Assembly: GCF_026210795.1 (NCBI RefSeq)
Contig: NC_089444.1
Span: forward strand, 4,144,501-4,208,500
DNA: 64,000 bases
Direction: 5' to 3'
Origin: Rhizophagus irregularis
Lineage: Eukaryota; Glomeromycota; Glomeromycetes; Glomerales; Glomeraceae
Part shown: positions 5,319 through 45,474 of the stretch, piece by piece
Layout of the letters: the number at the start of each line of letters is the position of its first letter
How positions within the stretch are numbered: position 1 is the first letter of the stretch
Notes under the pieces: generated by a model
What the model was told of the DNA's origin: nothing
Database searches by the model: none
The model's input: only the letters and a program-made list of their open reading frames with translations
Made by a program: the position numbers and the translations under genes

Positions 5319-8128
5319 CACTAGTCAAAAAAGGAATATTCGGCCTTAATACAATTTGGCCTATATTCGACTAGAATTAATAAAATTTAACTTCAATTAG
5401 TAAAGATCTACGATTAGACATATATTCAACCTAGTTGAATTATGTTAATCAAACGTTACGCATTACGCGATACGCGTATTAAAATAAAAGTTTAAAAAAG
5501 GATGATCCTTTTTTAAACTTTTTTAATTTCTTCTTTCCCTCCTCGCCCTTTCCCTTCTTTCGTTCCCCTTTTTTTTCGTCCCAGTTTTTCTTCTTTTCCT
5601 TTCCCTCCCTTCGTTCTCCTTTCCCTTCCTTCGCTTTTCCCTTCCTTACCCTTTTCCCTTTCCTTTCGTCACTTATCTCTTTTGAAGGTATACATATACC
5701 TTCGAATTTTTACTTTTTTTAATGAAACGTTTCACTAACGTTTTCGTTTTTTTCTTTTTTAGATTCAAGACGCCCATTTAAAAGGCTCGGGTGGGCTTCC
5801 GAAGTATGGAAAAACCAAGTTTCGTAAGTACGAAACTTGGTTTATTTATTTATTTTTTTAATTTAGTATGAACGGTTACTAACCGTTCTTTTATTACTTT
5901 TTTTTTAGATTTGGCCGTTTGGGTGGGCTTCCGAAGTATGGAAAAACCAAGTTTCGTAAATACGAAACTTGGTTTATTTATTTATTTTTTTTAATTTAGT
6001 ATATGAACAGTTACTAACCGTTTTTTTATTACTTTTTTTTTAGATTTGGCCGTTCGGGTGGGCTTCCGAAGTATGGAAAAACCAAGTTTCGCAAGTACGA
6101 AACTTGGTTTATTTATTATTTTTTTTAATTTAGTATGAACGATTACTAACCATTCTTTTATTACTTTTTTTTTAGATTCGGCCGTTCGGGTGGGCTTCCG
6201 AAGTATGTAAAAACCAAGTTTCGTAAGTACGAAACTTGGTTTATTATTTTTTTTTTAAATTTAATATGAATGATTACTAACCGTTCTTTTTTTACTTTTT
6301 AGGTTCGGCCGTTCGGGTGGGCTTCCGTGTTCTGAAGAATGGGAAAATTCCAAAGATTCGTAAGAATCTTGGATTTTTTTTTTATTTTTTTAAAAAAATA
6401 TTATGAACGGTTACTAATAACCGTTCTTTTCTATTTTTTAGGATCGGGTGGGCTTCCAAAGAACGGAAAACCAAGAAACCAAGATTCGTAAGTAAGTACG
6501 AATCTTGGTTTAATTTTTTTATTTTTTTTTAATATATGAACGGTTACTAATAACCGTTCTTTTTTTTTATAGGTTTGGGTGGGCTTCTGAAGAACGAAAA
6601 CCCAAAGATTCATTCGTAAGTACGAATCTTCAATCTTTTTTTATTTTTGATTATTACGAATGGTTTACTAACCATTCTTTCTTTTTTTTATAGGTTTGTG
6701 AGCTTCCGAGGATCAGGAAAAGGAGAACTAAGGTTCATTACGAACCTTGGATTTTTTTTTAATATTATAAACGGTTTCTAACCATTCTTTTTCTTTTATT
6801 TTTATAGGTTCGGTTGGCTTCTGAAACCAAGATTCGTAAGTACGAGTACGAATCTTGATTTTTGTTTTTTTTTATCATTTTGGAATGGTTTACTAACCGT
6901 TCCTTTCTTTTTTTTTATAGGTTCGTCCATTTGGGTGAGTTTCCGAAGAACGAAGAACGGAAAAAACTAAGATTCGTAAGTATTCCGTATTATGAATCTT
7001 AGTTTTTTTTTCTTTTTTTTTATTCTTATTATTATAAACGGTTACTAACTGTTCTTATTCTTTTTTTATAGGTTTCGGTGGGCTTCTGAAGAACGAAAAA
7101 GAACTAAGATTTGTAAGTATTACGAATCTTAGTAGTTCTTTTTTTGAAAAAAAGAAACGTTATACTGTATTAACGTTTCTATTTCTTTATTTTGTAGGAA
7201 CTCTGGGGCTTTCTTTCTCTCTTCCCTCTCACCTTCCCTCTCCTCTTTCGTTATTTTCCGCCATTCCTCTATCTCTTACTTTTGTAGGACGCTTTCTTGG
7301 AATTTTCTTCAGCTTCAGTAGATTTCTTTAGTAGAACGTATAAATCAACGTCTTGGAATTGGTAAGTTTTTTTTTTTATTATTAATTTTGATTTTTTTTA
7401 TTGATTTTTTTTATCTTATAATTTGTAGAAATCAACAGTTTCGCACTTCCTGAATCGAATTGGTAAGTTTTCACTTAAAAACTTTTTTTAAAAATTTTTT
7501 TTTATTATTAATTAATTTTTTTATTATCTTATTTTGTAGTTTCGGCTTCCTTATCCCGGATGATAGGATCGATTAGTAAGTTCCAAAACGGTTCGTTTTG
7601 AAACTTTTTTTTTAAAGTTTTGTTTTTCTGAATTTTTATTTCAGATCAGACTTGGACTTTATTTTTTTTCTTTAGTTATAGTGAGATGACTTTTAATATT
7701 CGTTCTTTTCAAGATGTGATCATGTGATTGTGAAATTATGTATAATTATTTTATTTATACATTAGATAGATACTAATATATATGTACTGTATATTTAAGT
7801 TGTTTTAATAAATTAATAAATTTGAAATTGAACTAAATTAATAAATAAATATTGAGACAAAATTTTGTGACAAATAATCATCCGAACTGCGCCTCAATTT
7901 GACGCCACTATTAGACCTAAATTCAACCTAAATTCAACCTAAATTCAATCTAGTCAAATTTAGGTCGAATGGTAGTGTAGTGATGGCCAAATTTTCTTTC
8001 CGAATTTGAGACGATTGGCACCCTAAATGCGCCAAAAATTTGACCTCAATTTGACACAGGTTAGATCATCATTCGACTTATATTCGACCTGGTCAAATTT
8101 AGGCCGAATTGTCTTTTTTTGACTAGTG
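5319..8128. mobile_element. Non-autonomous CACTA-type element A
   Basis: The ends are CACTAGTCAAAAAA and, inverted, CACTAGTCAAAAAAA, followed inside by matching GGCC-containing subterminal DNA. Flanks are TGA at 5316-5318 and TGA at 8129-8131, the 3-bp target duplication typical of CACTA/EnSpm. There is no transposase. The interior holds a pyrimidine-rich stretch (about 5510-5680), the intron-like module array (about 5761-7690) and AT-rich DNA. It sits in the endonuclease of LINE 1. Confidence 0.85.
5761..7690 (+). repeat. Array A of intron-like hairpin modules
   Basis: Roughly 15 tandem units read on the plus strand. In the first clear unit a 47-base exon-like block (5909-5955) is bounded by an 85-base intron-like block (5824-5908). 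Its donor is GTAAGT in the loop region of a hairpin with arms CCAAGTTTCG (5815-5824) and CGAAACTTGG (5831-5840). A second hairpin GAACGG/CCGTTC (5870-5888) exposes TTACTAA, a branch-point-like motif; then a T-run and TTTTAG follow. Later units change the stem bases but keep the pairing (for example AAGATTCG with CGAATCTT). Exon lengths are not multiples of three, so no protein is implied. Confidence 0.85.
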
Positions 8129-17204: not shown

Positions 17205-17942
17205 ATAATGTAGATAGATAGAATAGGATAAATTAACGAATATAATTTTTAAAAATATAATAATAAAATAAATATATATATATATATGTTATTATGTTAA
17301 ATAAATAAATAAATGAATAATATATAGTATATATAAATGAATAAATAATAAGTTTCAGGTTTCGATGTAGCAAATATACATCTAATATTATAAATAGTTC
17401 GGAGAAATATCAGATTGCTGAAATTCTCCCGATATTCATATAGCACTTTACCGTTATGTTCTAACCTGAAAGTCACATGACTTATACCTGATCTGCGCCG
17501 AGAACCGGTCACAAATCGGGTGGATCAATCAGCTGCCATTCAGGTTAAAATCGAAAACATATAATAGGGCTATCGGATAAATGAAATTTACCCGGTAGCC
17601 CTTCATTCGACCAGTGAAAGACGTTTCGCTCTGCAATATAATTAATTCGCAAATGTATCGTTCTTAACCCAACACGCGGTGCTGACCCGCATAATATATT
17701 TTAATAAGGGGTCAGATGATGTCACCAGAAGGGTCAAGTCCGATATTTTTGCAACTAAATCATTTAGTGAATTACTAAAACGGACGGACCACGTGATAAT
17801 TTTCTGGTTTCGCTATAGTAAAACCCGATTAATATTAATTTTTCATTAATACCCTGTACAATTTCCTATCTTCACATTGTAAACGGTCGAATATCAAGCA
17901 TGAAAAGATGATAAAATTCAACTACCAAACGTAATTGCCAAA

Positions 17943-18932
17943 TGTTAAGAACGAACAAATTAATTATGAATTGGCGTAGATGGATAAATAATTAGCCGAA
18001 AAGGATAAACATTTAGGAAGAGTAATGATCTACATGATGTAATATTTATCAAATGATTGACAAAGAACCAATAGGATAAATAGAGTCGATCAATTGCGGC
18101 TTAGCAATCTTTAACAATAAGAACGATTAGAAAGAATAATTATAAGCCACAAAAGATGGATTATAAGCAAAACACATGAAGCGGATTGAAAGAACATATA
18201 AAATAATGTCGGAAAGATTAAAGAACATAAAATAATATAAAAGATAACATAAAAAGATAATACAAAGATATTATAAAAGATAATATATATATAAAAGATA
18301 GCATATTAAAAGATAGCGTATTTAAAATATAGAAAGATAGTTCAAAGATAATATAAAAGATAGTATATAGATAGAATAGAAAGTAGTGTAAATTTGTATA
18401 AATAGAGAACGGAATTCAAAGTAATTCCACAGTTCTCATCCACAGAACTCAATAAAAATATAAGTTTTATTTTTTAATTATTTGTTAGTAAAGTTTAATG
18501 TTAATTAAAGGTAATAGGTTCGCCCTAAACTTTAATTAATGTTTGCTTAATTAATTTTAATTGAATAAATGGAAATTTTAAGATGAATTAAATGTACACT
18601 TTTGGAAAGTAATAATTCGTAGCGAGAGCTATCGAAGTTTGAAATTAAAGGTAAAAGTGGATATAATTTGGGGAAAATTTAGAGAAGTTAAATTTTATAT
18701 CGTTCGACGTTTTATATTACTAACGCTATTTATGTTGTGAACCAAGAATGTTGTCGTATATTGTTGTTATATGTTGTTCGTTGATTATGTTATTGTTAAT
18801 TATGTTGTTGATAATTTGTTCGTTTGTTTAATTGTTCGTTCGTTCGTTCATTCGTTCGTTCGACCATGAGAATGCCTGTTCGATGTGGCAACTCTGTAAA
18901 TTGATGACAGAGGGAATTGGGGGATCTCAACA
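17943..18932 (+). mobile_element. Probable solo LTR of a related gypsy-like element
   Basis: It begins TGTTAAG and ends CTCAACA (inverted TGTT/AACA), with TGCCA at 17936-17940 and again at 18933-18937, although two extra A's separate the left copy from the end. It contains TATAAATAG (18397) and AATAAA (18451), the promoter and polyadenylation layout of an LTR. It also contains GATAAATAATTAGCCGAA, which the LTR at 19326 also carries. A purine-rich AAAGATA repeat fills 18220-18380. There is no second copy and no internal region. Confidence 0.55.
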
Positions 18933-19325: not shown

Positions 19326-19938
19326 TGTAACTGAAGATATGGGATAGATTACACAGAAATTAATGTTAGATAGTGATAATTAGTTAACTGAAAATATAAT
19401 ACGGATAAATAATTAGCCGAAGGATAAATAATTAACCGATAAAATATTATTTATAGTTTAGTTTAGTTTAGTCACAAGATAGTCATATGATAATACATCT
19501 TTATTTTCTTATTATTCTTAAATTTTTATTAGTAGAAAAGTTAGAAATAGTAGAAATAATTTTCTTAAAAATGTATAAATATAGGTGGGATTCGATAGGA
19601 ATTCCGCAGTCAATTTTTGGCTCAAATAAAATAATATTGAAATATTAATTATTAAAAGTTATTCAAATATGAATATGCTCATTATACGCTTGAGAATTAA
19701 TTAATATTATATTATAAGTCCAGAGAAGTAAAGTAAGGGAAATTATCCCAGTTTGATTATTATATGAATTGTAATAATAAGTTAAGAGAACTCTCGCAGT
19801 TTGTAAGAGAAATTATGAGAATATAAGAGATATAAAGGAAAGAGAGCGAGAAGTTAAGAGATTATAAAATCTAAACCAAGCATAATATTGAACTGAGTAT
19901 GAGTTTAGTCTACTGATATGTGGCAGGTATCGGTGACA
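19326..19938 (+). repeat. 5' LTR
   Basis: 613 bp from TGTAACTG to GGTGACA. It holds TATAAATAGG (TATA-like) followed by AATAAAATA, a plausible promoter and polyadenylation signal. Compared with the 3' LTR I find three substitutions by eye: AAATTAATG/AAATCAATG, CATTATACG/CATTGTACG and GTAAGGG/GTAAAGG. Confidence 0.9.
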
Positions 19939-28961: not shown

Positions 28962-29304
28962 GAAAGGTAGTCAGTGTAATGGAACTAAGAGTTAAGATTG
29001 AAATATAGGTTAATTGAAAAATATTCAGATAATAAATAAAGGAACTAGAGGATAAGTAGTTATCCAGAAAGATGTTAAACTAATTGAGAATTAGCGAAGT
29101 TAAAAAATATTAAGTTATAAGTAATAGAATATTATATGATAAAAGATGTAATAAGAAAAATGTAATAAGAAGTCATGTACATGAGAATGTAAAGAAATAA
29201 AGATTGAAGTAATAAATGAATAGTTATATGAATAAAATATAAATAAACTGAAAATACGAAATGAAATCATTTTACAAGTGAATAAATAAATAAAATAACG
29301 TAAA
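28962..29304 (+). other. Spacer between accessory frames
   Basis: AT-rich, purine-biased spacer. Apart from short ATG frames nothing is recognised. It ends with AATAACGTAAA before the next ATG, like the leaders of the other frames. Confidence 0.4.
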
Positions 29305-30315
29305 ATGGAATGGTATCATCAGTGGGAAAGTGAATACAAGACACATAAAGAGGAACATGAGTTAAGAACAGAGGAATTAGATGAATGTTTAAGTTGTGAA
29401 TTATGTTATCTGATAGTAAATGAACCAATTGTATTCAAGAAATTTTGGGATGCACTATTCAAATTTGAAGATGCGATAATAATATATAATGATGTAACAA
29501 TCAAGGGAGTATTAAGTTTATTAAGTATGGATAATTCAGAAAGGGAAGACACAATACATAAAGGAAGATGTAGAGACATAATGGATAGAATAACAGAATC
29601 AATAAGGTATAGAATACAACCTAAAATAAAAGAAAAAGGATTAAGAGCAATTATATTAGTAATTGTGAGGGATTGTATTGAAAGAAATCTAGAGAATGAA
29701 GTATTTGACAGATTAATTGGGAATCCTGAATTACTAGAACATAAATACATTTTAGAAGATTGGGATGTCAAAAGAAGATTTGAAAAATTTTGGCAATGGT
29801 ATAGGGTTGCATTAGAAGAAATTAGGGCTGTAAAAGTAAAAGTAGAAGCAATAGGAAAGTTCAAGGAATTATTGTATGAAGAAGAAAAGATAGCAGAAAG
29901 TGAAGAAAAAGTGAAAGAATTAATGCAAGAAATAACACATGAGAATGTAGAAATAGATAATGTTCATGAACATCATAAGAATATGGTACAGAAGATAATA
30001 AGGGTATTTATAGACACTAGGGGTTTTACAAAAGAACCAGAAGATTCAGAAAGTGAAGAAAGTCCAGCAAGTTATGAATTGGAAAACAGTTCTGAAGAAG
30101 AACTAGAAATAATAATAGGAGACAAATCATGGAAATTTAGCGAATTAAAGAGAAGGACAAGTTCTATCAATGAAGATCAATTGAAATACATCTGGAAAAT
30201 AGGAATAAAGTTGATGATAGAAATGGATGTATTGGTAACAAAAACATTTATAGATAAAGTTCAAGAAATAAAGGAAATGGATGAAGAGGTTGGAAAGAGA
30301 AACAGTAATATGTAG
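29305..30315 (+). CDS. Retrotransposon accessory protein, 336 residues, unknown
   Basis: Intact from ATG after the leader ACGTAAA. A CLSCELC cysteine pair lies at residues 28-34; the middle is helical and charged (FWQWYRVALEEIRAVKVKVE), and an acidic patch (about 245-275) precedes a helical C-terminus. There is no known domain. Its last 12 codons overlap the start of the gag frame in another phase (ATG at 30281). Together with the frames at 26565, 27613 and 27990 it forms an accessory block before gag. Confidence 0.6.
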   Translation: MEWYHQWESEYKTHKEEHELRTEELDECLSCELCYLIVNEPIVFKKFWDALFKFEDAIIIYNDVTIKGVLSLLSMDNSEREDTIHKGRCRDIMDRITESIRYRIQPKIKEKGLRAIILVIVRDCIERNLENEVFDRLIGNPELLEHKYILEDWDVKRRFEKFWQWYRVALEEIRAVKVKVEAIGKFKELLYEEEKIAESEEKVKELMQEITHENVEIDNVHEHHKNMVQKIIRVFIDTRGFTKEPEDSESEESPASYELENSSEEELEIIIGDKSWKFSELKRRTSSINEDQLKYIWKIGIKLMIEMDVLVTKTFIDKVQEIKEMDEEVGKRNSNM

Positions 30316-32705
30316 AAGGTGCGGTAATAGGAGATTTGAAATGAACAAAATGGATAGCGAATGTGAAGAATGTATTCAAGAAATGCAGAAAGATGAATAG
30401 GATGAGTTAGCAGAATTAAAAGATGAATTAGAAAAATTGGGATATGAGATAGATGTATCAGAAATTCAAAGAATAAAAGGTTTTGGAGTAAATAATCGAA
30501 TAATGATAACAAAAGAGTTTATAAAAGAATATATGAAGATAATAGATTTGGAAGATAAAGAAGTAAGAAAAGAAATTCATAAGTGGTTAAACGAGAATAC
30601 AACTTGGTGTGAAGGATGCGAAATAAAATGGATGAATAATATGTTTAGATTAGGAGAAATTATATGTAAAGATTGTAAGGAAGAAGATATCAATGAAATG
30701 GACGATCGAGTAAAGAGATTGAAGAAAATATTTGAAGGTATGGGAATAATAATGATTGAAGGAGAATTATTAAGATTAATTAGTATGGGGTATACAGATG
30801 GAGAAATTTTAGATAAAGAATTTATTGAAATCTTTCAAGAAAATAAGAATGAGTCAGAAAAAGAGCTAAGGAAAAAGTTAGATAAGTTGTTAAAGGAACA
30901 GGCAGGAATAATGGATAGTGAAGAAAGTGGTGAAAAGAGTGATAATGAAGAATCAGAAGAAGATAATACAGATGAATCAGAAAAGATTGAAGAAATATTA
31001 AGCCCAGAAGAAGATGAGGAATGGAATGAAAATATTGAGAATATAAATGAAGAAGGAATCGAAAATATTATAAATACAGGAGGTTTTGGTTCAAGTCAAA
31101 ATTCAGATTCGAATAGTTCATTGAATATTAAAGATTCTGATAACGAAAGTGAATTATCTGATTACAATTTACAAGATTTATTTCAAGAGAATATATTATT
31201 AAATATGGCAACCGAAATACAAATAAGAAGAATGCTTGAAAATGCTTTAGGATTAACAGCTAATGCATTAGATAATGCATTAGGAGCAGGACAAACTATA
31301 GTAGATAGAATTGCAACTGCAGGAAATGGAAGAATAGTAGGTATGCCAACTTTTAGTGGAAAAGAAGATGAAGATGTTAACGATTGGATTAGACAGTTTG
31401 AAGTAGCATTTACAGTAAGTGGAAGACCAGAAGGAAATATTGGAGGAGGTGCATGCAGACAAAATAAAGCGAATATAGCAATAACCTGTTTAAGAAAAAT
31501 CGCATTACAATGGTATAATGAAGAAAAAGAAAGAGTAGTAGCTAATTTAGTAAACTGGTGTGATCACGATGATGATAGAAATTTAAAAAATAAATTAATT
31601 AATAGATTCACTAGAGAAGATGTTAAAAGAAGAAAAATGATAGAACTGACAAGGATTAAACAAGGAAAAATGAAAGTGTTGAAGAATATACCAGAAGGTT
31701 TAGGTCAATATTAAGAATTGCGATCAGAGGTCAAGTATTACATGATCTATACCAAGTAAATTATTTTATTCAAGGATTAGAACCTATGTTAGGATATCAA
31801 GTTAGGAGAAGTAGTCCAACGAATCTAAATGATGCAGTTAATATGGCAAGAAGAGAAGAAGAAGCTAGGAGTGAACTATTAATGAAAACAATGGGTTTAA
31901 ATATAGAACAATTGGGACAAGAAAAGAATATGGAAGAAATCTTGAGAGAAGAAACAAATAAATATAAGAAAATGAATCCAATTGCTGAAGAATTACAGAA
32001 TAAAGAAGTTAAAAATGATGAAATGGATGAAATGATTAAGAAATTGGAAAGAATGGAAGCACATATGATGGGAAGGAATGGAAGTACTAGAAGACCAATG
32101 AGAAGAGATAATAGAAATAATGTTGATTGGAGTAAAATGAGTTGTTATACATGTGGAAAACAAGGACATACTTTAAAGATTTGTAGAGAAAATCAAAGAG
32201 GAATGAATAGAAGAAATAATCAAGTTAATTACCTTAATGAGGATTATGATGAAGAATATGATGCTTATAATATAGAATATGATGGCTATGATGAATATAA
32301 TGAATATGAAAATAGTGAGTATGATGTTTATGAAATGGAAAATGAAAGTGATGTTGAAGAAAATGATATGTATCCAGCACCGATCAGAAGAAGCGAAAGG
32401 AATAAAGATAAAGTTATGAATGATGAAAGAAATAGAAGAAGAAATGTACAATGGCAAGAACAATAACAAAAAGCACAAGGAAAAAGGAAAGGTTTTACAC
32501 AATAACAGTTACAAAAAGCAAAAGAAACTAGAAGAAGAAACAATTTATGTCAAAACTGTGGCCAATATGGACATTTTGCTACTGAATGTAAAAATGAGAA
32601 AGTAAGATTAAAAAGTAGAGTACCAAATATTAAAGGATTTGATCCAGTTAAAAGATTTATGAATTCAAATGTACCAATTAGTTGGGAACAATATCTAAAC
32701 GAAAA
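30281..32705 (+). pseudogene. Gag polyprotein with N-terminal zinc-ribbon extension
   Basis: Gag builds the particle and binds the RNA. The frame appears to start at ATG 30281, with ICRRCGN and CEEC cysteine pairs, a TAG at 30398 (fits CAG to TAG), a second pair set WCEGCEIKW and ICKDCKEE, and an acidic stretch. The capsid core starts near 31205 (MATEIQIRRMLENALGL) with FSGKEDEDVNDWIRQF and GYQVRRSSPTNLNDAVNMA. Two CCHC zinc knuckles follow: CYTCGKQGHTLKIC (about 32144) and CQNCGQYGHFATEC (about 32546). Defects are a one-base deletion near 31673, TAA at 32464 and 32503 (both fit CAA to TAA), and a one-base deletion near 32700 before protease. Confidence 0.8.
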
Positions 32706-35688
32706 ACCTGGTGTAGGAAAGAAATTGTGAAATGGTTTGAAATATTGACTACGCCCGGGGAAATAAAGAATATTAATCAAAATAGAAAACCACAAGCAAC
32801 AAGATGTAATGTAATTGTTAAAGGAAAAATGATGAGAGCTTTAGTTGATACAGGAGCAGGAATTTCAGCAATATCTAACGCATTAAGAAAAGAGTTAAAT
32901 ATACCAATAATTAAGAAAAGTAATGTAGTATTAACGATAGCTGATGGTAAAAATATAGCATCATTAGGAATTGCAGAAATAGAAATAGAGATTAAAGAAG
33001 ATTTGGAAATAACATTAGAAGTTGAAGTAATTGATTCAAAACGAAAAGAGTTGATATTAGGAACTAATTTATTGAAATATGGAATATTAGATATGAGAGA
33101 AGGAATGTTAACAATAGAATTAGATAATGAAATTTATGAGATACCAATCACCACTATATATATTTGCCTTTTCTCCATCACTAATAAATTGAAGGCATGT
33201 GATGCGGCACGTGACATATAATGTGATCCCCGCAGAAGGGGTGACATTTTGTGTGTGATGCGCTAACTGCCACATCCCTTAAACGTCGCATCCCAATGAT
33301 CAGCTGATTCTGCCAATCAAGCCAGCCAACCGATGGAGCCAAATATATCACGTGATGTTACACAGATTTCCAAAAAAGGAAATTTTGTTCCTCACGAAAA
33401 TGAAATTTTAAGTTACACAAAGTTCCCAAAAAAGGAAATTTGTATGCAGATCATTAATTCCGGCCGGAATTAAAGATTTATTAAAGTCTATCATGTGACG
33501 TTTACAAATTTTAAATTCTTATACAAATCACTTAATTTTTTATGCAAATACAATATTTAATATTACATATAACAATCTATAACAATACTTAACAATACTA
33601 TATAAATAAAAATTCAATAATAAATACATTTGATTTTTTAACAGTGCTATATAAATAAAATACAATATTTAAATTTTAACAATACTTTATAAATAAAATG
33701 ATTTTTTAATAATACTATTATTTAAACTTACATTTTCAACATTTTCAATTTATCAACAATTTATTTATTACTATTATTTATTACTATTATCAATTAAAAA
33801 TCATATATTAGAAATTCAAGATTATAAGACTTTAAATAAAATGCAAGAATTAAATTTAACAATACTTTATAAATAAAATTTCATATTTTATTTTTTAACA
33901 ATGCTGTTATCCAAACTTACATTTTCAATTCACTTATCAACAATTATTACTAATTAAAAATCATATATTAAAAGAATATGATTAGCATTACAGCAAACTT
34001 TTAATCAATAACAATTTAACTAACATTCTAACCAGTAAAAAACTTTCAAAATTATAAAACTCTAACTAAAAGTCCAATATTTAAATTTTAACAATACTTT
34101 ATAAATAATATTCATATTTAATTTTTTAACAATGCTATTATCCAAACTTATATTTTAATTCACTTATCAACAACTACAATATATAGTGAACTATAGTACT
34201 TCTTGCAAAAATTGGGTTTGACCCTGCACTTTCAGGTACTAAACAAAACTTAAAAAAATTCTATTTTTTTGCAAATATCTCATAATCTACCAGTTCAATT
34301 TAAGTGATCTTTTTTTTATTTTAAATAGTTCAATGAGAGTTATCAAATAAAGAAAAGATGGCTCAAATCTGATTACTAAATCACGAAATAAATGTAAAAT
34401 ACCCTTCCAGGTAAAGATTTGCAAATGAGTCCCAAAATTCTGAAAACCCTAATTTGGTTCAGATCCGAATCTGGGTTTGAGCTGGCAAATTTTCTTTAAA
34501 ATTCACCTGAATATGAATTTTCATCAAATCTAAATTTTTGTAATTCTAGCCAAAATCATTTTAATTCTGACCGAGATTAAACTGGCCAAAATTAAGTTAG
34601 CCAATTTTTTTGTTTTTACAACAAAATGATATAATAAAAATCTGAATCCAATCTGAACCAGATTTTTGATATATTAAGTCCAGGCTGGGCTGGAACAGGC
34701 ACTTTATATTAATTTCCAAGTGTAGGCCAGGCTGGTTTGTAAAATAGTGGTCAATGCAGACTTTTACTCCCAGATACTATACAATTTTATGAAATTTTTC
34801 AAGAAGGGTACTATACATAGTGAGGTACTATAACCCGTAGTATATAGTATTACCAATTAAAAATTATATATTAGAAGAACACATAGATTAATATGCATTA
34901 CACCAAACTTTTAATCAATAACAATCCAACTAATACTTTAACCAGTAAAAAACTTACAAGATTATAAGATTCTAAATAAAAATCCATATTTAAATTTTAA
35001 CAATACTTTATAAATAAAAATTTCATATTTAATTTTTAACAATGCTATTATCTAAACTTGCATTTTCAATTTGCTAATCAATAACTATTACCAATTAAAA
35101 ATCATATATTAAAAAAATACATAGATTGATATGCATTACACTAAACTTTAGATTAATAACAATCCAACTAACACTTTAACCAGTAAAAACTTTTAAGATT
35201 ATAAGGCTTTTAAGTCAAAAAATATTTATCTGAATACAGATATATATATTACAATGTAACTATTCACTACTATACCCATTATATAACTTCTTATATATCA
35301 AATGCAAAAAATACCAAGACAACAATAATCATATTAATAGAAATATATCAATATAATATATTTAACTATTTATTATAAATTAGAAAAAAACCACAAATTC
35401 TAATACTATTAGTATATAATAATATATTCTTGATAAGTAAAATTTATTTAATTATATAATTTTACCCAAATTTTCAAAAAAAATGTAAATTATGATCACA
35501 ATCAAAAACAAAAGACATTATCAAAAATGTAAGAAAACTTGGTCATTATACTCTATAATATTTAAATTATATAAAGTAAAATGAATAATAATAAAAATAA
35601 TTTTTTTTTTAAAAAAAAAATGATTAATATAAATTATAAATTTTAAGGTGATTTAATCCAGGTTATTTAACCTAAGAGGCAAGTTAAT

Positions 35689-36759: not shown

Positions 36760-39072
36760 ATGCCAAATGAAAGTAAGAAAGAGAAATTTGAAAGGAAAAT
36801 ATATTTAGGAGAAATGGATAATCTAAAGAAAGAAATGTTTAAAGAGTTAATAAGAGAATACAAAGATATATTTGAATATGATGAAGAAAAATTAGGAAGA
36901 GTTAATAAAGTTAAGCATGAAATTGAAGTTAAAGAAGATCAAGAACCAATAGCACAAAAGAGATATAGAGAAACTGAAGAAAAAGAAAAGTTTATAAAGA
37001 AAGAAATAGAACAATTATTGAAAATGGGTAAAATAAAGAAGTCATGAAGCCCATGGTCATCTCCAGTAACATTAGCAGGAAAGAAAAGTGGAAATTACAG
37101 ATTTTGTATAGATTATAGAAAATTAAATAGTGTAACTAAGTCAGATGCATATCCATTACCAAGAATTGATGAATTGTTAGAGAAATTTAGAAGAGGAAAT
37201 TGGTTCACAAGTTTAGATTTAGCAGCAGGATATCATCAAGTTGAAATGGCAGAAAATGATAAAGAGAAAACAGCATTTATATGTTCGCAAGGATTGTTTG
37301 AGTATAATGTTATGCCATTTGGATTAAAGAATGCACCTGGAACATTTCAGAGATTAATGGATGAAATATTAAAAGAGTATATCAGAGAATTTGTTACAGT
37401 ATATTTAGATGATATAATGATTTATTCTAGAGATTTTGAGGAACATTTAAAACATGTTAATAGAGTATTGAACAAATTAAGAGAAAATAATATGATTGCG
37501 AAGTTAAAGAAATGTCAATTTGGATTAAGAAATATAAACTTTTTAGGACATATAGTAGGAAAAGATGGTTTACGACCAGATGAAAAGAAAGTTGAGAAGA
37601 TAAAGAGTATAAAAAGACCAGAAACTGTTACAGAAGTAAGATCATTTTTGGGATTATGTTCATATTATAGAAGATTTATAAAGGATTTTGCAAAAATAGC
37701 AAAACCTTTACATAATTTAACGAAAAAGGATACAGAGTTCGAATGGAAAGAAGAACAACAAGTAGCTTTTGATATATTGAGAACAAAGTTAATAGAGAAA
37801 CCAATTTTAATATATCCAGATTTTGATAAGGAATTTATATTAATAACTGATGGATCTAAAATAGGGTTAGGAGCAGTATTAGCTCAAATGAATGAAGATA
37901 ATAAAGAAGCTGTCATAGCTTATGTGAGTAGGAGTACAGTTGGAGCAGAAAAGAATTATCCACCAACAGAATTAGAATGTTTAGCCGTATTTTGGGGAAT
38001 AAAACATTTTCAGAAATATTTAGTAAGAAGAAAGTTTATAGTAATAACAGATCATGCAGCTTTAAAAGGATTAACAGATGGTAAAGAACAGACAGGAAGA
38101 AGAGCAAGATGGGTAATGAAGTTACAACAGTTTGATTTTAAAATAGTTCACAGAAGTGGAAAGAAAATTAAGAATGCAGACGCATTATCAAGACTACAAT
38201 TTGAAGAAAAAGATATAAAAAGGGATGTTGAAAGCTTTGATCAGGAATTAAATAAAATGGATTATAATAAAGAGAAAAAGTTAAGATATGCTAAATCAGG
38301 AAATAAATGGTTTAATGCTAAAAGATTTAGAGGAAAATGGGATGATATGAAATATTTTAATGATAAAGAAGCGATATTATTAAATCTAGAAGATAAGACA
38401 GAGAAGGAATTGTTAAAAAGATTAGGAAAAGAAAGTAAACCACAAATTGTTATTGTTGAAGGAGTAGATGGCACAGGAAAGACTACAATAGTAGAAAATG
38501 TAATTAAACAATTAAAGGATAAAGATAAATTGAAAGTGAGATTCAATACATTCAAAAGAAGAAGAAATGATGATGAAAGATTTAAAGAACCTTCAAAAGA
38601 ATATGAATGGTTATTCAGAAAACAAGTTGTTGAAGAAATTAATAGAAGAATGACTGAATTTGATGATGAAGATATTATAATATTGGATAAGTCACCTTAT
38701 AGTGAATATTTTTACCAGAAAACTAAAAGTTTTGATAGGGGATTAATTAGTCCATATGGAAATCATAAAATGGAAAAAGAAATATTTAAATATAAAGATA
38801 TCATAGATAATGCAGTAGTAATATTTTTAGAAAATGATGAATGTTGGAAAAATTACATTGGAAGAGAAACTAAGAAGAGTGAAAAAGGACATAAATCGTC
38901 TTATGATACATTAAATGAAGAAGAATATATGGATATGGTTAAAATGTTTAAAGAATACCAGAATGTGTACGAAAATGAAGAAAAATATAGGAATATAAAA
39001 ATTAAGAATGACAATGAAAGTTGGAAAAAGGTATATAAACAGGTCGAAATATTATTAAGAAAAGTAAAATGA
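36760..39072 (+). pseudogene. Pol: reverse transcriptase, RNase H and thymidylate-kinase-like domain
   Basis: It copies retrotransposon RNA into DNA and degrades the RNA. The frame runs from ATG at 36760. The RT has FTSLDLAAGYHQVEM, VMPFGLKNAPGTFQRL and the catalytic VYLDDIMIYS (about 37395). Gypsy-type RNase H has LITDGSKIGLGAVLAQ, ELECLAVFWGIKHF and KNADALSRL. A linker of about 80 residues (38200-38430) leads to a P-loop kinase (38431-39069). One defect is TGA at 37045-37047 between KKS and SPWSSPVTL, where related polymerases have Arg (CGA to TGA). No protease or integrase is in this frame. The kinase at the C-terminus is not part of any gypsy Pol I know. Confidence 0.9.
38431..39069 (+). 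other. Thymidylate-kinase-like P-loop domain fused to Pol
   Basis: About 210 residues in frame with RT-RNase H. PQIVIVEGVDGTGKTTIVEN is a beta strand plus Walker A (GVDGTGKTT, 38461-38487) as in dTMP kinases. DEDIIILDKSPYSEYFYQ matches the family's DR(F/Y/H/S)xxSxxAYQ signature except that Lys replaces the usual Arg. AVVIFLENDE followed by GRETKK fits the later strand and Arg-containing lid. Thymidylate kinases phosphorylate dTMP to dTDP; deoxynucleoside kinases of the same fold are the alternative. A role in supplying nucleotides for reverse transcription is inference. The domain has no frameshift or stop. Confidence 0.85.
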
Positions 39073-39212
39073 CCAAAGAAAATATTGGATTAGAAATTTA
39101 TGTATTTATTATACATAAAAATATAAACTATCATTGTATATTATTTGAAGATAAGGAATTGAAGTTTATATTACCATTTGAAGCGGAAATAGAAGAGTTA
39201 TTAAGTAAATAA
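39069..39212 (+). CDS. Small frame overlapping the end of Pol by ATGA
   Basis: A 47-residue frame starting MTKENIGLEIYVFIIHKNIN. Its ATG overlaps the Pol stop (ATGA), and its TAA is 13 bases before the integrase ATG. No domain is recognised. The tight spacing suggests the three frames are translated from one message, or that the region is a remnant of a joined polyprotein. Confidence 0.45.
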   Translation: MTKENIGLEIYVFIIHKNINYHCILFEDKELKFILPFEAEIEELLSK

Positions 39213-39225
39213 AGAATAAAGTAAA

Positions 39226-40420
39226 ATGGAAGAAGAAGAATATAATAGGATATATAAGAATATAGAGAAAGAGGTTAAATATATTATTAAGGATAACTTA
39301 TTATATAGAAAGGAAGGAAATAGATTACTAAAAGTTATAAGAAAATATGAATTCGAAGGATTAATGTACATTGCACATGACCATGAATTGTCAGGACATT
39401 TTGGAATAGAAGCAACATATGAAAGAATTAAAGATAAATATTATTGGAAAGGAATGAAACAAGATATAGAAATATATGTTAAATCATGCGATAATTGTCA
39501 GAGAAGAGGAAAACCGATTGGGAAACATGATTTAAATATAATTAGAGTTAAAGAACCATTTTACCAGATTGGAATAGATGTTGTGGGACCATTACCAATA
39601 ACAGAAATAAATAATAGATTTATTGTTACAGCGATGGATTACTTTACGAAATGGCCAGAAGCTAGAGCTTTAGAAACAGCAGATGCTAAAGAGATTGCAA
39701 GGTTCATTTATGAAGATATAATAAGTAGACATAGATGTCAAAAGAAAATACTAAGTGATAGGGGAAGTCATTTTAATAACAAATTAGTAGAACTATTAAT
39801 GGAGGAATTTCAGATAAAACATAATTTTTCAACACCTTATTACCCAAAAACGAATGGATTAATCGAAAGATTCAATAAGACATTATGTGAATCGTTGGCA
39901 AAATTAAGTAATGTAGAAGATTGGGATTTAAAAGTACCAGGAGTTTTATTTGCATATAGAACAAAGAGAAATAATTCAACAAAGTTAAAACCAGGATATT
40001 TAATATATGGAAAAGAAATGAAGACATTATTGAATTTAGAAGATGAAAATGTTACGATGATACAAAGAATTAATAGTCTAATCGAAGAATTACCAAGCAT
40101 TAGAAATCAAGCTAAAAGAAATGTTGAAAAATCTCAAGAAAAACAAAAGTTATATCACGATTCACGATAAGAAGAATAAAATAAAGAAGAAATTTCAGAT
40201 AGGGGATAAAGTATTATATTACAATGCAGCGAAAGAAAAACAATGGTCTGGAAAACTTGAAGAAAAATGGAAAGGACCTTATTATATACACGAAACGATT
40301 TCTAAAGGATCATATAAAATAAAGACTATGGAAGGAAAGATATTGAAGACACCAGTAAATGGAGAACTATTAAAAGAATATATTGATAGATCAAATTTTG
40401 AAGTTTTAATTAGAATTTGA
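39226..40420 (+). pseudogene. Integrase, separate frame, broken near its C-terminus
   Basis: It inserts the retrotransposon DNA into chromosomes. ATG 39226 follows the leader AAGTAAA. An HHCC zinc-binding domain (HDHELSGHFG, CDNCQRRG) is followed by the catalytic core with D in QIGIDVVGPL, D in KILSDRGSHF and E in NGLIERFNKT. Then comes the C-terminal domain FQIGDKVLYY with GPYYIHETISKGSYKIK. A one-base indel near 40166 (after KLYHDSR) separates core and C-terminal domain. The frame ends at 40420, 31 bases before the 3' LTR. Confidence 0.88.
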
Positions 40421-40451: not shown

Positions 40452-40960
40452 TGTAACTGAAGATATGGGATAGATTACACAGAAATCAATGTTAGATAGT
40501 GATAATTAGTTAACTGAAAATATAATACGGATAAATAATTAGCCGAAGGATAAATAATTAACCGATAAAATATTATTTATAGTTTAGTTTAGTTTAGTCA
40601 CAAGATAGTCATATGATAATACATCTTTATTTTCTTATTATTCTTAAATTTTTATTAGTAGAAAAGTTAGAAATAGTAGAAATAATTTTCTTAAAAATGT
40701 ATAAATATAGGTGGGATTCGATAGGAATTCCGCAGTCAATTTTTGGCTCAAATAAAATAATATTGAAATATTAATTATTAAAAGTTATTCAAATATGAAT
40801 ATGCTCATTGTACGCTTGAGAATTAATTAATATTATATTATAAGTCCAGAGAAGTAAAGTAAAGGAAATTATCCCAGTTTGATTATTATATGAATTGTAA
40901 TAATAAGTTAAGAGAACTCTCGCAGTTTGTAAGAGAAATTATGAGAATATAAGAGATATA

Positions 40961-42547
40961 CAGTCCCCTCTCGATATAACGAACCCTAGGTTCCAGCTGA
41001 TCAGGGCTTCATTATAAGCAACTTCGTTAACACTATAACGAATTATTCAGTATTGTATAATGAATTCTTCGGTATAGGAATATCGGTTATACAGATCATG
41101 TGACTTGTTGATCTGATTACCGATAATTTAACATTTTTTTTAATCTTTTTTTTATAGGGGTGCTTTCTAAACTTCAAAATAGATGCCTAGAATGAGAAGT
41201 AAGTGGGAACTGGGGGTTTTTTATATTAATTTCGTTTAAAAACATTTACTAATGTTCTTTTTTTATTTTTTTTATTGTAGGAAACTTCCTGGACTTCGAA
41301 ATGGACGCCTGAGACGAGAAGTAAGTGGGGAACTCAATTTTTTTTATTTAAGAACATTTACTAATGTTCTTTTTTTATTTTTTTATTATAGGGAACTTCC
41401 TGGACTTCGAAATGGACGCTTGAAACAAGAAGTAAGTGGGGAACTCGATTTTTTTTATTAATTTCGTTTAAGAACATTTACTAATGTTCTTTTTTATTTT
41501 TTTATTGTAGGGACTTCGAAATGGACGCTTGAGACAAGAAGTAAGTGGGGAACTCAATTTTTTTTATTAATTTCGTTTAAGAACATTTACTAATGTTCTT
41601 TTTTATTTTTTATTGTAGGGACTTCGAAATGGACGCTTGGGACAAGAAGTAAGTGGGACAACTCAATTTTTTCTTTTAATTTCGTTTAAGAACATTTACT
41701 AATGTTCTTTTTTATTTTTTTTATTGTAGGGACTTCGAAATGGACGCTTGAGACAAGAAGTAAGTGGGACAACTCAATTTTTTCTTTTAATTTCGTTTAA
41801 GAACATTTACTAATATTCTTTTTTATTTTTTTTTATTGTAGGGACTTCGAAATGAACGCTTGAGACAAGAAGTAAGTGGGACAACTCAATTTTTTCTTTT
41901 AATTTCGTTTAAGAACATTTACTAATGTTCTTTTTTTATTTTTTTATTATAGGGAATGCTTCCTGAAGTGTTCTATATAAAAATGTTTATTATAATTCCT
42001 TTTTTTTGTAGGAATGCTGTTTAACAATAACTGACTATATAATAAATAAATTATTAATGATATATTAATTTAACTAGGAGTGTCCTTACCCCTATGATAA
42101 ATATAAATTAATAACAATTCACATCGAATCCTAATACAACCGAATTAATGTAAATTAATGTAATTCTGCCTAAATATTAAATAAAATAGCCAGAATTATT
42201 AATCCTGATACGATCCTGATACAATCCTGATCCATAATTTAAATATAAAACACAGGGGTGATATTTAATGTCATAATGCATCAATATTTATTAATAATTA
42301 CATTTAATTATAAAGAAATTCTTCGTTATAACTGAAAAAAATTCGTTATAAAAAAAATCCGTTATATCGAGAGGCATTTTTATATAAGAAATTCACACAC
42401 TTTACTTCGTACTACGTTATATGGTAAATAAATAGTAAACTTCGTTATATCAAGGTTTTTTTCATATTTAAAATCGGTACCACACTGTATGATCCGTTAT
42501 ATCATGTTATTCGCTATATCGAGGTTCGCTGTAGAGAGGGGTGACTG
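40961..42547. mobile_element. Non-autonomous pogo/Tigger-like element in the 3' LTR
   Basis: The ends are CAGTCCCCTCTCGATATAAC and, inverted, CAGTCACCCCTCTCTACAGC, flanked by TA at 40959-40960 and 42548-42549. The 5' LTR provides the empty site. Subterminal DNA has many CGATATA / CGTTATA motifs, as in pogo-like ends. No transposase. The centre is an intron-like array. Confidence 0.92.
41160..42015 (+). repeat. Array of intron-like hairpin modules in the pogo-like element
   Basis: About eight units. The exon-like block is near GGGACTTCGAAATGGACGCT then TGAGACAAGAA, followed by the donor GTAAGTGGG. The branch-like hairpin is AAGAACATT-TAC-TAATGTTCTT and the acceptor ATTGTAG or ATTATAG. Consecutive units are nearly identical, so they spread by tandem duplication. 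Unlike the CACTA-type carriers this element duplicates TA. Confidence 0.85.
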
Positions 42548-45474
42548 TAAAGGAAAGAGAGCGAGAAGTTAAGAGATTATAAAATCTAAACCAAGCATAA
42601 TATTGAACTGAGTATGAGTTTAGTCTACTGATATGTGGCAGGTATCGGTGACACCGGACAAGAAGAGTCAACATCATTTAATAATAATTATGAATCAGAT
42701 TTTGCCGGTTTTATCCCTCAAAAAAGGCGTAGACAAGACCAGTTTCGGGAACTGGAAGCCAATAAGGAAAGCAATGAACCGATTAATGAGTATGAATATG
42801 AAGGTGACATTTCTCCAGAAGACAATATGGATTTGGACGACGATCCTGTTAAACAATTTGCTGCGCCCGAAAATGATTCAGAATTCACATATCCCGACAC
42901 AAATGTTAATATTGCAGATTCTTGGATATTGACATGGATATTCAAATATCAAGCAAGATTTTGCTTGCCGGATGTTGCACTAGATTCTTTGATAAAGTTT
43001 TTTCATCAAGTATTAATGGATGCTAATCAGACGAGATTCAAAGATTTCCTGTCTTCTTTATACACTGCGACTAAGTTATTACGAATCGACAACCAATCTA
43101 TGACTTACGCAGTATGTCTGAGCTGTAATACATTATATAATATAGCTGATGTTGTTGCGGATGAAGGATTTAAATGTACGCATATAGAATTTCCAATGAA
43201 ACCAAAGGAAAAATATTGCAGAATGGAATTAACTGTGTAAGTACCGCATGGTAATGGAAATAAAAGATGCCCCAAATTGTTATTTCCATTACCGAATTTG
43301 AATATACAGATAAACAGTTTGTACCAGAGACCAGAATTCAAGCAACAACTACGAAAATGGACCAATCGGGATGTAAATAATGGTATGTTAGCAGATATTT
43401 ATGACAGTAAAATCTGGAAAACTTTTCCAGACACTTCAGACGTCCCATTTTTTACACTGGAGACTGCAGATTCCCACTTGGGAATTATGATTAATCTCGA
43501 TTGGTTTCAGCCTTTCGAGTCATCTGTATACAGATGTGGGGCTATTTATGGGGTTATTTGTAACCTACTGCGTGAAATTAGATTTAAAAAAGAAAATATG
43601 TTGACGCTTGGTCTACTACCAGGACCAAGCGAGGTTAAGTTACACAAAATTAACCATTATCTCGCTCTGATTGTTGATGAGTTATTAGAGTTCTGGAATG
43701 GGATTGAGATTCCCGCTGCTGAAAAAATATCCAATTGGCATTAATATGCTGTTCGAATGACATTCCTGCGACAAGGAAGCTCTGCGGTCACATATCAGCA
43801 TCAGTGAGCTGCCATAGGTGTTATAAAACTGCAAATTCAAATGGAAATAGAAATAAGTCAAATTTTGGCGGCTTTGATGATATGGTTGACTGGTTTGTAG
43901 AAAGAGATTTGGATGAACATCGACGGAATGCTGAGCTTTGGAGACTATGTAAATCTGAGGAGGAAAGAAAATGTCATGTGAGTTCGACCCATGTTAGATG
44001 GTCCGAATTGCTTCGATTGCCGTATTTTAATCCAATAAGGTACCTTGTCATAGATCCAATGCACTGTTTGTTCCTCAGAATAGCCCATTGGATAATTAAA
44101 AAATTATGGATCAATGGCAACAAGATCACGAAACAAGATCTAGAAAAAATGGAAAAGCGAGCAAAAATCATACAAATACCCACGGATTTGGGGCGTATTC
44201 CAAATAAAATTGCAACTGGAGAAAGATTTTCTGCATTTACGGCCGACCAATGGAAAACGTTTGTTCTAATTTATGCTATTCCATTGATGTGGAATTTGCT
44301 CGCCAAATCAGATCGACAAATTTTGGGAAATTTCGTTAGAGCTTGTTTTCTGCTAGTTTATCGAATTATTGACTGTGACATATTGAACGAAGCTCACAAA
44401 TGTTTGCTCAAAGTTGCAATGTTAATTGAAGAAAATTATGGTCCAGAAAGAATAACCCCAAACCTCCATTTGTATTTTCATATTGCCGATTGTTGCCTGA
44501 ATTATGGTCCATTATATTCTTTCTGGTGTTTTTCCTTTGAATGAATGAACGGTATCCTCGGTAGGTATTTTGCGAACTGTTTAATCGTTTAGCTTGCTAA
44601 TAATTTATTAAATAATATCAATAGGCTCTTTTCCCAATAGTAATCGTCAAATTGAACCCGAACTCTTACGAATTATAATGCAGCATTGGAGACTTGATAA
44701 CCTTGTATCCGTTCAATCAAATAATGTTAAGCTTGTTGAAGCTTTAAAATTAATTCAACCACGATCAACTTCCGGAAGTTTAGCAGCTTACGATAATTTT
44801 AATTACACTGAGCTGCATCAATTTAGAAAGGTATTTTTCCAAGAAGTTGATGAAACAATTGTCGGTAGCGAACCACTTCCTGGAGAAATGCTTACGCTAT
44901 ATAAAAATCAGGTTGCCTTGCCTGATGATATTTATCAAATCCTAATCGAATATTATAATATTGCTTACGACTTGCAATTTGTAACAATTGCTGAGTCAAC
45001 ATCAACTAGTTCACAATAGTTGTGCCAAATATGATTGATCAATTTGGGCGGGTTAGGAACTCAGCAGAAGTGTTTGGATCGGCAATGGCACCCCAATACC
45101 TGAAAAACGTGAATGTTTTGGCGAAGTTTATCCAAAACAATGAAACGACTGATATATTTCCCGGTCAGGTACAGTATTATTTTGAACATACTTTGAGAAT
45201 TTTGGGTGAACTTAAAACACATCGATTAGCATTTGTTAAATGGTATAAACTGGCGCCAAACCAGAAAACCTGATTTTATACAAGTATTGATGGTGATAAA
45301 AAAAGCTCAAATATTGAACTTTGGAGAAATGAATTTTATGAAATAGAGCGAGATTGTTTAATTCCAATTCATTACCTATATAGTCGCTTTGTATCTGGTG
45401 AATTTGTAATTGGCAAAAAGAATCCTATCACATATAATGCTGTAATCCCAATAAATAGGCAGTTTCACTTGTGA

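Follow-up and report, generated by a model that had tools for sequence, protein, structure and literature searches.

Can an LTR (long terminal repeat) retrotransposon carry its own enzyme for making DNA precursors? The question is raised by a stretch of 64,000 nucleotides of Rhizophagus irregularis (C16:4144501-4208500, here called the window; the genome comprises 146.7 Mb in 32 contigs), in which a sequence-only reading had noticed the Pol of a Gypsy element fused to a thymidylate-kinase-like domain. The fusion was confirmed. The plus-strand frame 37174-39072 is open over 632 codons and takes in the later portion of the reverse transcriptase (RT; RVT_1, E 8e-33), RNase H (RH; PF17917, E 4e-36), a linker of 78 residues (38197-38430) and a 213-residue P-loop domain (38431-39072) in which no stop was found, as had been claimed. 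The sequence-only reading let the frame begin at 36760. The continuity from RT through RNase H into the kinase stood; the start at 36760, however, is reached only across a TGA at 37045-37047, and the first part of the RT lies upstream of it. RT and RNase H together occupy 36760-38196 and end with KNADALSRL. Linker and kinase match protein P0001 of R. irregularis DAOM 181602=DAOM 197198 at 100%. We consider it probable that a Ty3/Gypsy lineage of the Glomeraceae captured a kinase of the thymidylate kinase/deoxynucleoside kinase (TMPK/dNK) fold and kept it between RNase H and integrase, where the domain would be an active dTMP-like kinase that raises precursor supply.

Identity and fold of the domain are nearly certain. 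It carries the P-loop GVDGTGKTT (about 38461-38487) and a second motif, LDKSPYSEYFYQ (about 38683-38718). In family searches all 45 rows matched the thymidylate kinase family phrog_761. PF02223 was the commonest Pfam match (34/45 rows), and PF01712 was matched by 4/45 (E<=0.001). PF01712 was absent from the matches listed for the window domain (25 of 31 families). The predicted model has a thymidylate kinase/deoxynucleoside kinase fold, the two folds tying, and identity to the solved TMPKs listed was 12-18%. A match to nucleotide kinases was present in family searches as well as in the predicted fold. Sequence-profile matches in the PDB, mostly FtsY and other P-loop proteins, reflect P-loop similarity and were set aside. 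With cellular thymidylate kinase (PF02223, TIGR00041; the host's own is on C13) the domain shares fold, type of P-loop and spacing of the second motif; it differs in having DK for DR and in being fused to RT. The replacement of the usual Arg by Lys, which had already been noticed in the window, was found in 120 of the 120 proteins with a readable motif (140 were inspected, 20 of them unreadable) and in 41/41 genome copies. Walker A is kept in 38 of the 39 genome copies that cover the whole motif. The host TMPK was ruled out as a recent donor; its motif reads VDRYAYSGVSY.

Is the window copy an isolated case? A genome search gave 151 kinase matches, of which 150 were taken further. At least 195 codons are covered by 131 of these, and 115 of the 131 are free of internal stops. 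A kinase on the same strand no more than 6 kb downstream was found for 98 of 114 RT matches, in 93 of these within 300 bp. The remaining 16 RT matches lack a downstream kinase; 14 of them are rows of a family termed D, described below. Because the RT-kinase arrangement recurs in dispersed copies, it is not due to chance. By identity, the elements were divided into the families window type (W), A, B, Bp and C. Wherever a copy of W, A, B or Bp was read, its RT-RH frame ends with the kinase. In the two copies of family C that were read, an RT-RH frame of 493 codons is followed by a separate frame of 600 codons with kinase and integrase. The R. clarus gene model P0012, in which the P-loop is altered, unites RNase H, kinase and integrase within a single protein. 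The relatives with a species name belong to R. irregularis, R. clarus, R. diaphanus and Glomus cerebriforme, and some source databases already annotate such proteins as 'thymidylate kinase' or 'thymidylate kinase-like domain'. One copy each of A, B and C was examined for its ends. The LTRs start with TGT and end with CA, a TGG-type primer site follows shortly after the 5' LTR, and 4-bp target duplications (CCAT, ACGT and CTGT) are present. LTR identity was 99.05% over 633 bp and 96.6% over 89 bp in the A copy, 99.8% over 1213 bp in the B copy and 100% over 627 bp in the C copy. These insertions are recent.

The kinase is under purifying selection in W, A, B, Bp and C. The median ratio of nonsynonymous to synonymous changes (dN/dS) within families was 0.10 in W, 0.09 in A, 0.05 in B, 0.17 in Bp and 0.23 in C (one pair). 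Corresponding medians for RT-RH were 0.12, 0.07, 0.03, 0.06 and 0.02, and for the integrase 0.15 (W), 0.13 (A), 0.12 (B) and 0.05 (C), with none for Bp. In A, B and W the constraint on the kinase is about that on RT-RH. These values come from 40 of about 150 copies (W 4, A 12, B 13, Bp 9, C 2), mostly the best-scoring ones and therefore biased to intact copies. They were calculated according to Nei-Gojobori, which ignores base composition, from non-independent pairs; pairs with fewer than 100 shared codons were skipped. Excluded were L003, L008, L019 and L043 as duplicates of longer loci, and also L001 and L037, which are the window itself; no group was assigned to L017, and the partial copy L005 was kept. 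Neutral decay of the kinase, raised in the sequence-only reading as a possible outcome, did not occur in the 40 copies compared.

Next to selection, the copies bear a trace of exchange. The Bp copy L032 resembles the window in RT-RH (85%) and integrase (79%), and the window's linker is common to Bp copies (75-76%). Compared with the B copy L031, L032 is 88% identical in the kinase, but only 68% in RT-RH and 57% in the integrase, of which 181 residues of L031 were compared. The switch in similarity along the L032 protein is located at the P-loop. Since its kinase is B-like while RT-RH and integrase are window-like, we conclude that the kinase segment moved between families by recombination.

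Do full-length copies without a kinase exist, as the sequence-only reading had considered? A partial answer comes from the related family D, which lacks it. Judged by its RT, which is 61-69% identical to that of the kinase families, D is a separate family. The one D copy read (L053) has, in this order, RNase H, a small open reading frame (ORF) of 47 codons (about 2634-2777) and integrase, and no kinase. The D set comprises 21 RT matches (20 full or near-full, one partial) with 96-100% identity, 14 of which were checked for a kinase by position. In the best RT tree the 18 kinase-bearing rows form one group, apart from D and from two other Gypsy elements (support 58/65), and a position of D inside the window/A group was not rejected (p-AU 0.417). 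The RT tree is compatible with one kinase gain after the split of D as well as with loss in D; it does not decide. A loss in D would fit because a similar small ORF is common to D, A and the window. Its length is 47-50 codons; it lies in the kinase-integrase gap of the window copy and of two family A copies, and in the RNase H-integrase gap of the D copy. In the window it runs on the plus strand from 39069 to 39212 (47 codons), and its start and the kinase stop share the letters ATGA; L033 (about 7136-7288, plus strand) has the same overlap. The Bp copy L032 instead has an open frame of 118 codons (about 7134-7487) in the kinase-integrase gap.

Where did the kinase come from? Searches with it reach metagenomic proteins in which a NUDIX domain precedes a similar kinase (P0042, P0043, P0127-P0140). 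These are the nearest kinases outside the elements and have the same DK motif (14/14 readable). They differ in their N-terminal NUDIX domain, seen where the protein is long enough to show it, and in having no RT. PF01712 was below the cut-off in these fusions where listed. P0139 is 42% identical to the element kinase over 233 amino acids, including 24 residues before the kinase, and P0043 has 106 matches in the R. irregularis genome, all confined to its kinase and the stretch before it. The last part of the window linker is like the NUDIX-to-kinase stretch of the fusions. In a profile alignment, the pre-kinase stretches of elements and NUDIX fusions matched with E 9e-4 compared with 0.31 for a reversed control. 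In both predicted models a strand comes first there, followed by a short helix and then by a longer one; in the P0139 model 75 of 393 residues have a pLDDT below 50, much of the NUDIX part being low, and the pre-kinase blocks reach 84-87. PF00293 (NUDIX) is absent from the family matches listed for the window kinase domain and its ORF. Because of the likeness in profile and model, the linker may represent the final part of a NUDIX domain that was lost. The captured gene may then have been a NUDIX-kinase fusion whose NUDIX part shrank to the linker, a weaker proposal than that on the kinase itself. In the kinase tree the joining of element and NUDIX kinases was not resolved because of long branches. 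Scans of viral contigs and prokaryote genomes by tblastn (2-6 short start patterns each, which can miss relatives) yielded neither kinase nor NUDIX-kinase relatives. Phage records gave weak partial matches to the kinase or none, and no NUDIX-kinase relative was among them.

What might the domain do in the element? Kinases of the TMPK/dNK fold phosphorylate a deoxynucleoside or a deoxynucleoside monophosphate (dNMP). Made within the RT (or integrase) protein, the kinase would be present at the site of reverse transcription, and an active deoxynucleotide (dTMP-like) kinase may raise the local supply of one DNA precursor. Several points weigh against a dTMP-like kinase that serves the element. 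The window domain alone scores 23.5 bits with PF02223 and misses the cut-off of 27; with its in-frame neighbours it scores 28.4, and the relatives P0060 and P0010 are above the cut-off with 32.5 and 30.2. The dTMP kinase equivalog TIGR00041 was not reached (25.0 bits, cut-off 83.25). The catalytic Arg of TMPKs is the Lys described above. Constraint on the kinase is weaker than that on RT-RH in Bp and C. Because many near-identical D copies of RT exist without a kinase, such elements can do without it. The probability of the pre-kinase profile alignment was only 23%, so the NUDIX link is weak. Lastly, production of deoxynucleoside diphosphates alone does not yield deoxynucleoside triphosphates (dNTPs).

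Could the domain have another activity? A salvage-type deoxynucleoside kinase would make dNMP from nucleosides and would not be a nucleoside monophosphate kinase. We regard this as rather unlikely: the P-loop, GVDGxGK, is of the TMPK type, as is the spacing of LDKSPYSEYFYQ, and phrog_761 and PF02223 far outnumber PF01712 in the rows counted above. The Lys in the catalytic motif, the fusion to RT-RH or integrase, which makes a structural role possible, and a weak match of 3/45 rows to a PHROG polynucleotide kinase would fit a different role, whether action on 5' ends of nucleic acids or on a protein, or nucleotide binding alone by a domain that serves RT or integrase structurally. Such a role is quite improbable because Walker A and DK are conserved, the predicted fold is that of small-substrate kinases and the fusion partner is not the same across families. 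Retroelements can pick up host fragments, and the kinase might be a passenger caught by chance or an assembly artefact. The scatter of its copies over several families and species, its low dN/dS and its exchange between families make this very improbable, and we disfavour it. A dTMP-like kinase that adds to precursor supply is the reading we retain.

The window copy itself has the Ty3/Gypsy order of gag, protease, RT, RNase H and integrase, and is broken up by insertions between its LTRs; all its parts are on the plus strand. The 5' LTR (19326-19938) has TGT...ACA ends and matches the 3' LTR, with an identity of 99.4% over 509 bp and 100% over 106 bp in the parts aligned; it is 90% identical over 406 bp to the LTR of one family A copy. 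A TGG-type primer binding site starts at about 19942. The gag region (29299-32463) is in broken frames, 29299-30312, 30401-31711 and 31660-32463, the last with a CCHC knuckle, and matches the gag part of L032 at the DNA level. An aspartic protease ORF follows at 32682-33221 (PF13975, E 6.5e-11). The sequence-only reading placed the integrase downstream in its own frame. It is indeed a separate ORF (39226-40170; H2C2, PF17921, E 1.7e-21; rve, PF00665, E 5e-10), but its phase is that of the RT-kinase frame. The rest of Pol had been credited with a single stop; besides the TGA already mentioned, there is a frameshift at the integrase end, which reads on at 40121-40420. The 3' LTR (40452-42653) is split by an insert into 40452-40960 and 42548-42653, and the 4-bp flanks of the element differ (CCAA vs CCGG). 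Within this insert a tandem unit of about 110 bp is present in seven copies (41138-41955). A family B LTR (pieces of 95% and 85%) lies at 17878-18929, directly before the 5' LTR of the element. The Gag and protease frames are set apart by just one in-frame TGA, with CTA directly after it, in six of six 10-kb copies (L031-L036; families A, B, Bp and C). TGA CTA is a leaky stop context; therefore, Gag-protease may arise by readthrough. Another Gypsy element (L058, C23:945000-948000) has a long Cys-rich stretch behind RNase H in an open frame of 1665 codons.

Retroelements are, to our knowledge, usually thought to use dNTPs as the cell offers them, dUTPase being the main exception. Among the closest known systems are the dUTPase-bearing Ty3/Gypsy elements PosPlaTy3 of basidiomycetes (PMC2864245) and Juno, Vesta and TelKA of bdelloids (PMC5408684). 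There, too, a pyrimidine deoxynucleotide enzyme was gained within Pol. Its position is between protease and RT, or else at one of the two ends of Pol, and not between RNase H and integrase (PMC2864245, PMC5408684), and dUTPase, which hydrolyses dUTP, is a different enzyme from the element kinase. Retroviral dUTPases are likewise element-encoded nucleotide enzymes tied to reverse transcription: the enzyme keeps dUTP low for some retroviruses, it is said to be critical for non-primate lentiviruses only in non-dividing cells (PMC4531489), and it can sit between RT and integrase, like the kinase here (PMC5408684). Enzyme and chemistry differ, and the carriers are retroviruses rather than fungal Gypsy elements. 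The word 'kinase' is absent from the main text of PMC2864245 and PMC5408684, and 'thymidylate' from the main text, as far as available, of two papers on R. irregularis transposable elements. No LTR retrotransposon with a thymidylate kinase turned up in an open-access library, judged for longer result lists by the 10-20 titles displayed; the search did not extend to supplements, preprints, subscription papers or repeat databases. Gypsy elements with a nucleotide-metabolism domain are known, and a kinase in that place is, as far as searched, undescribed. The chances are about even that these are the first LTR retrotransposons with their own deoxynucleotide kinase in Pol, a selected cassette of NUDIX-kinase origin that is traded between families and would feed reverse transcription where precursors are scarce, as in multinucleate hyphae and spores. 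The kinase is one soluble domain and simple to assay, and related families with and without it offer a natural comparison within one genome. If the kinase has such a role, precursor supply can limit retrotransposition strongly enough to favour a carried enzyme.
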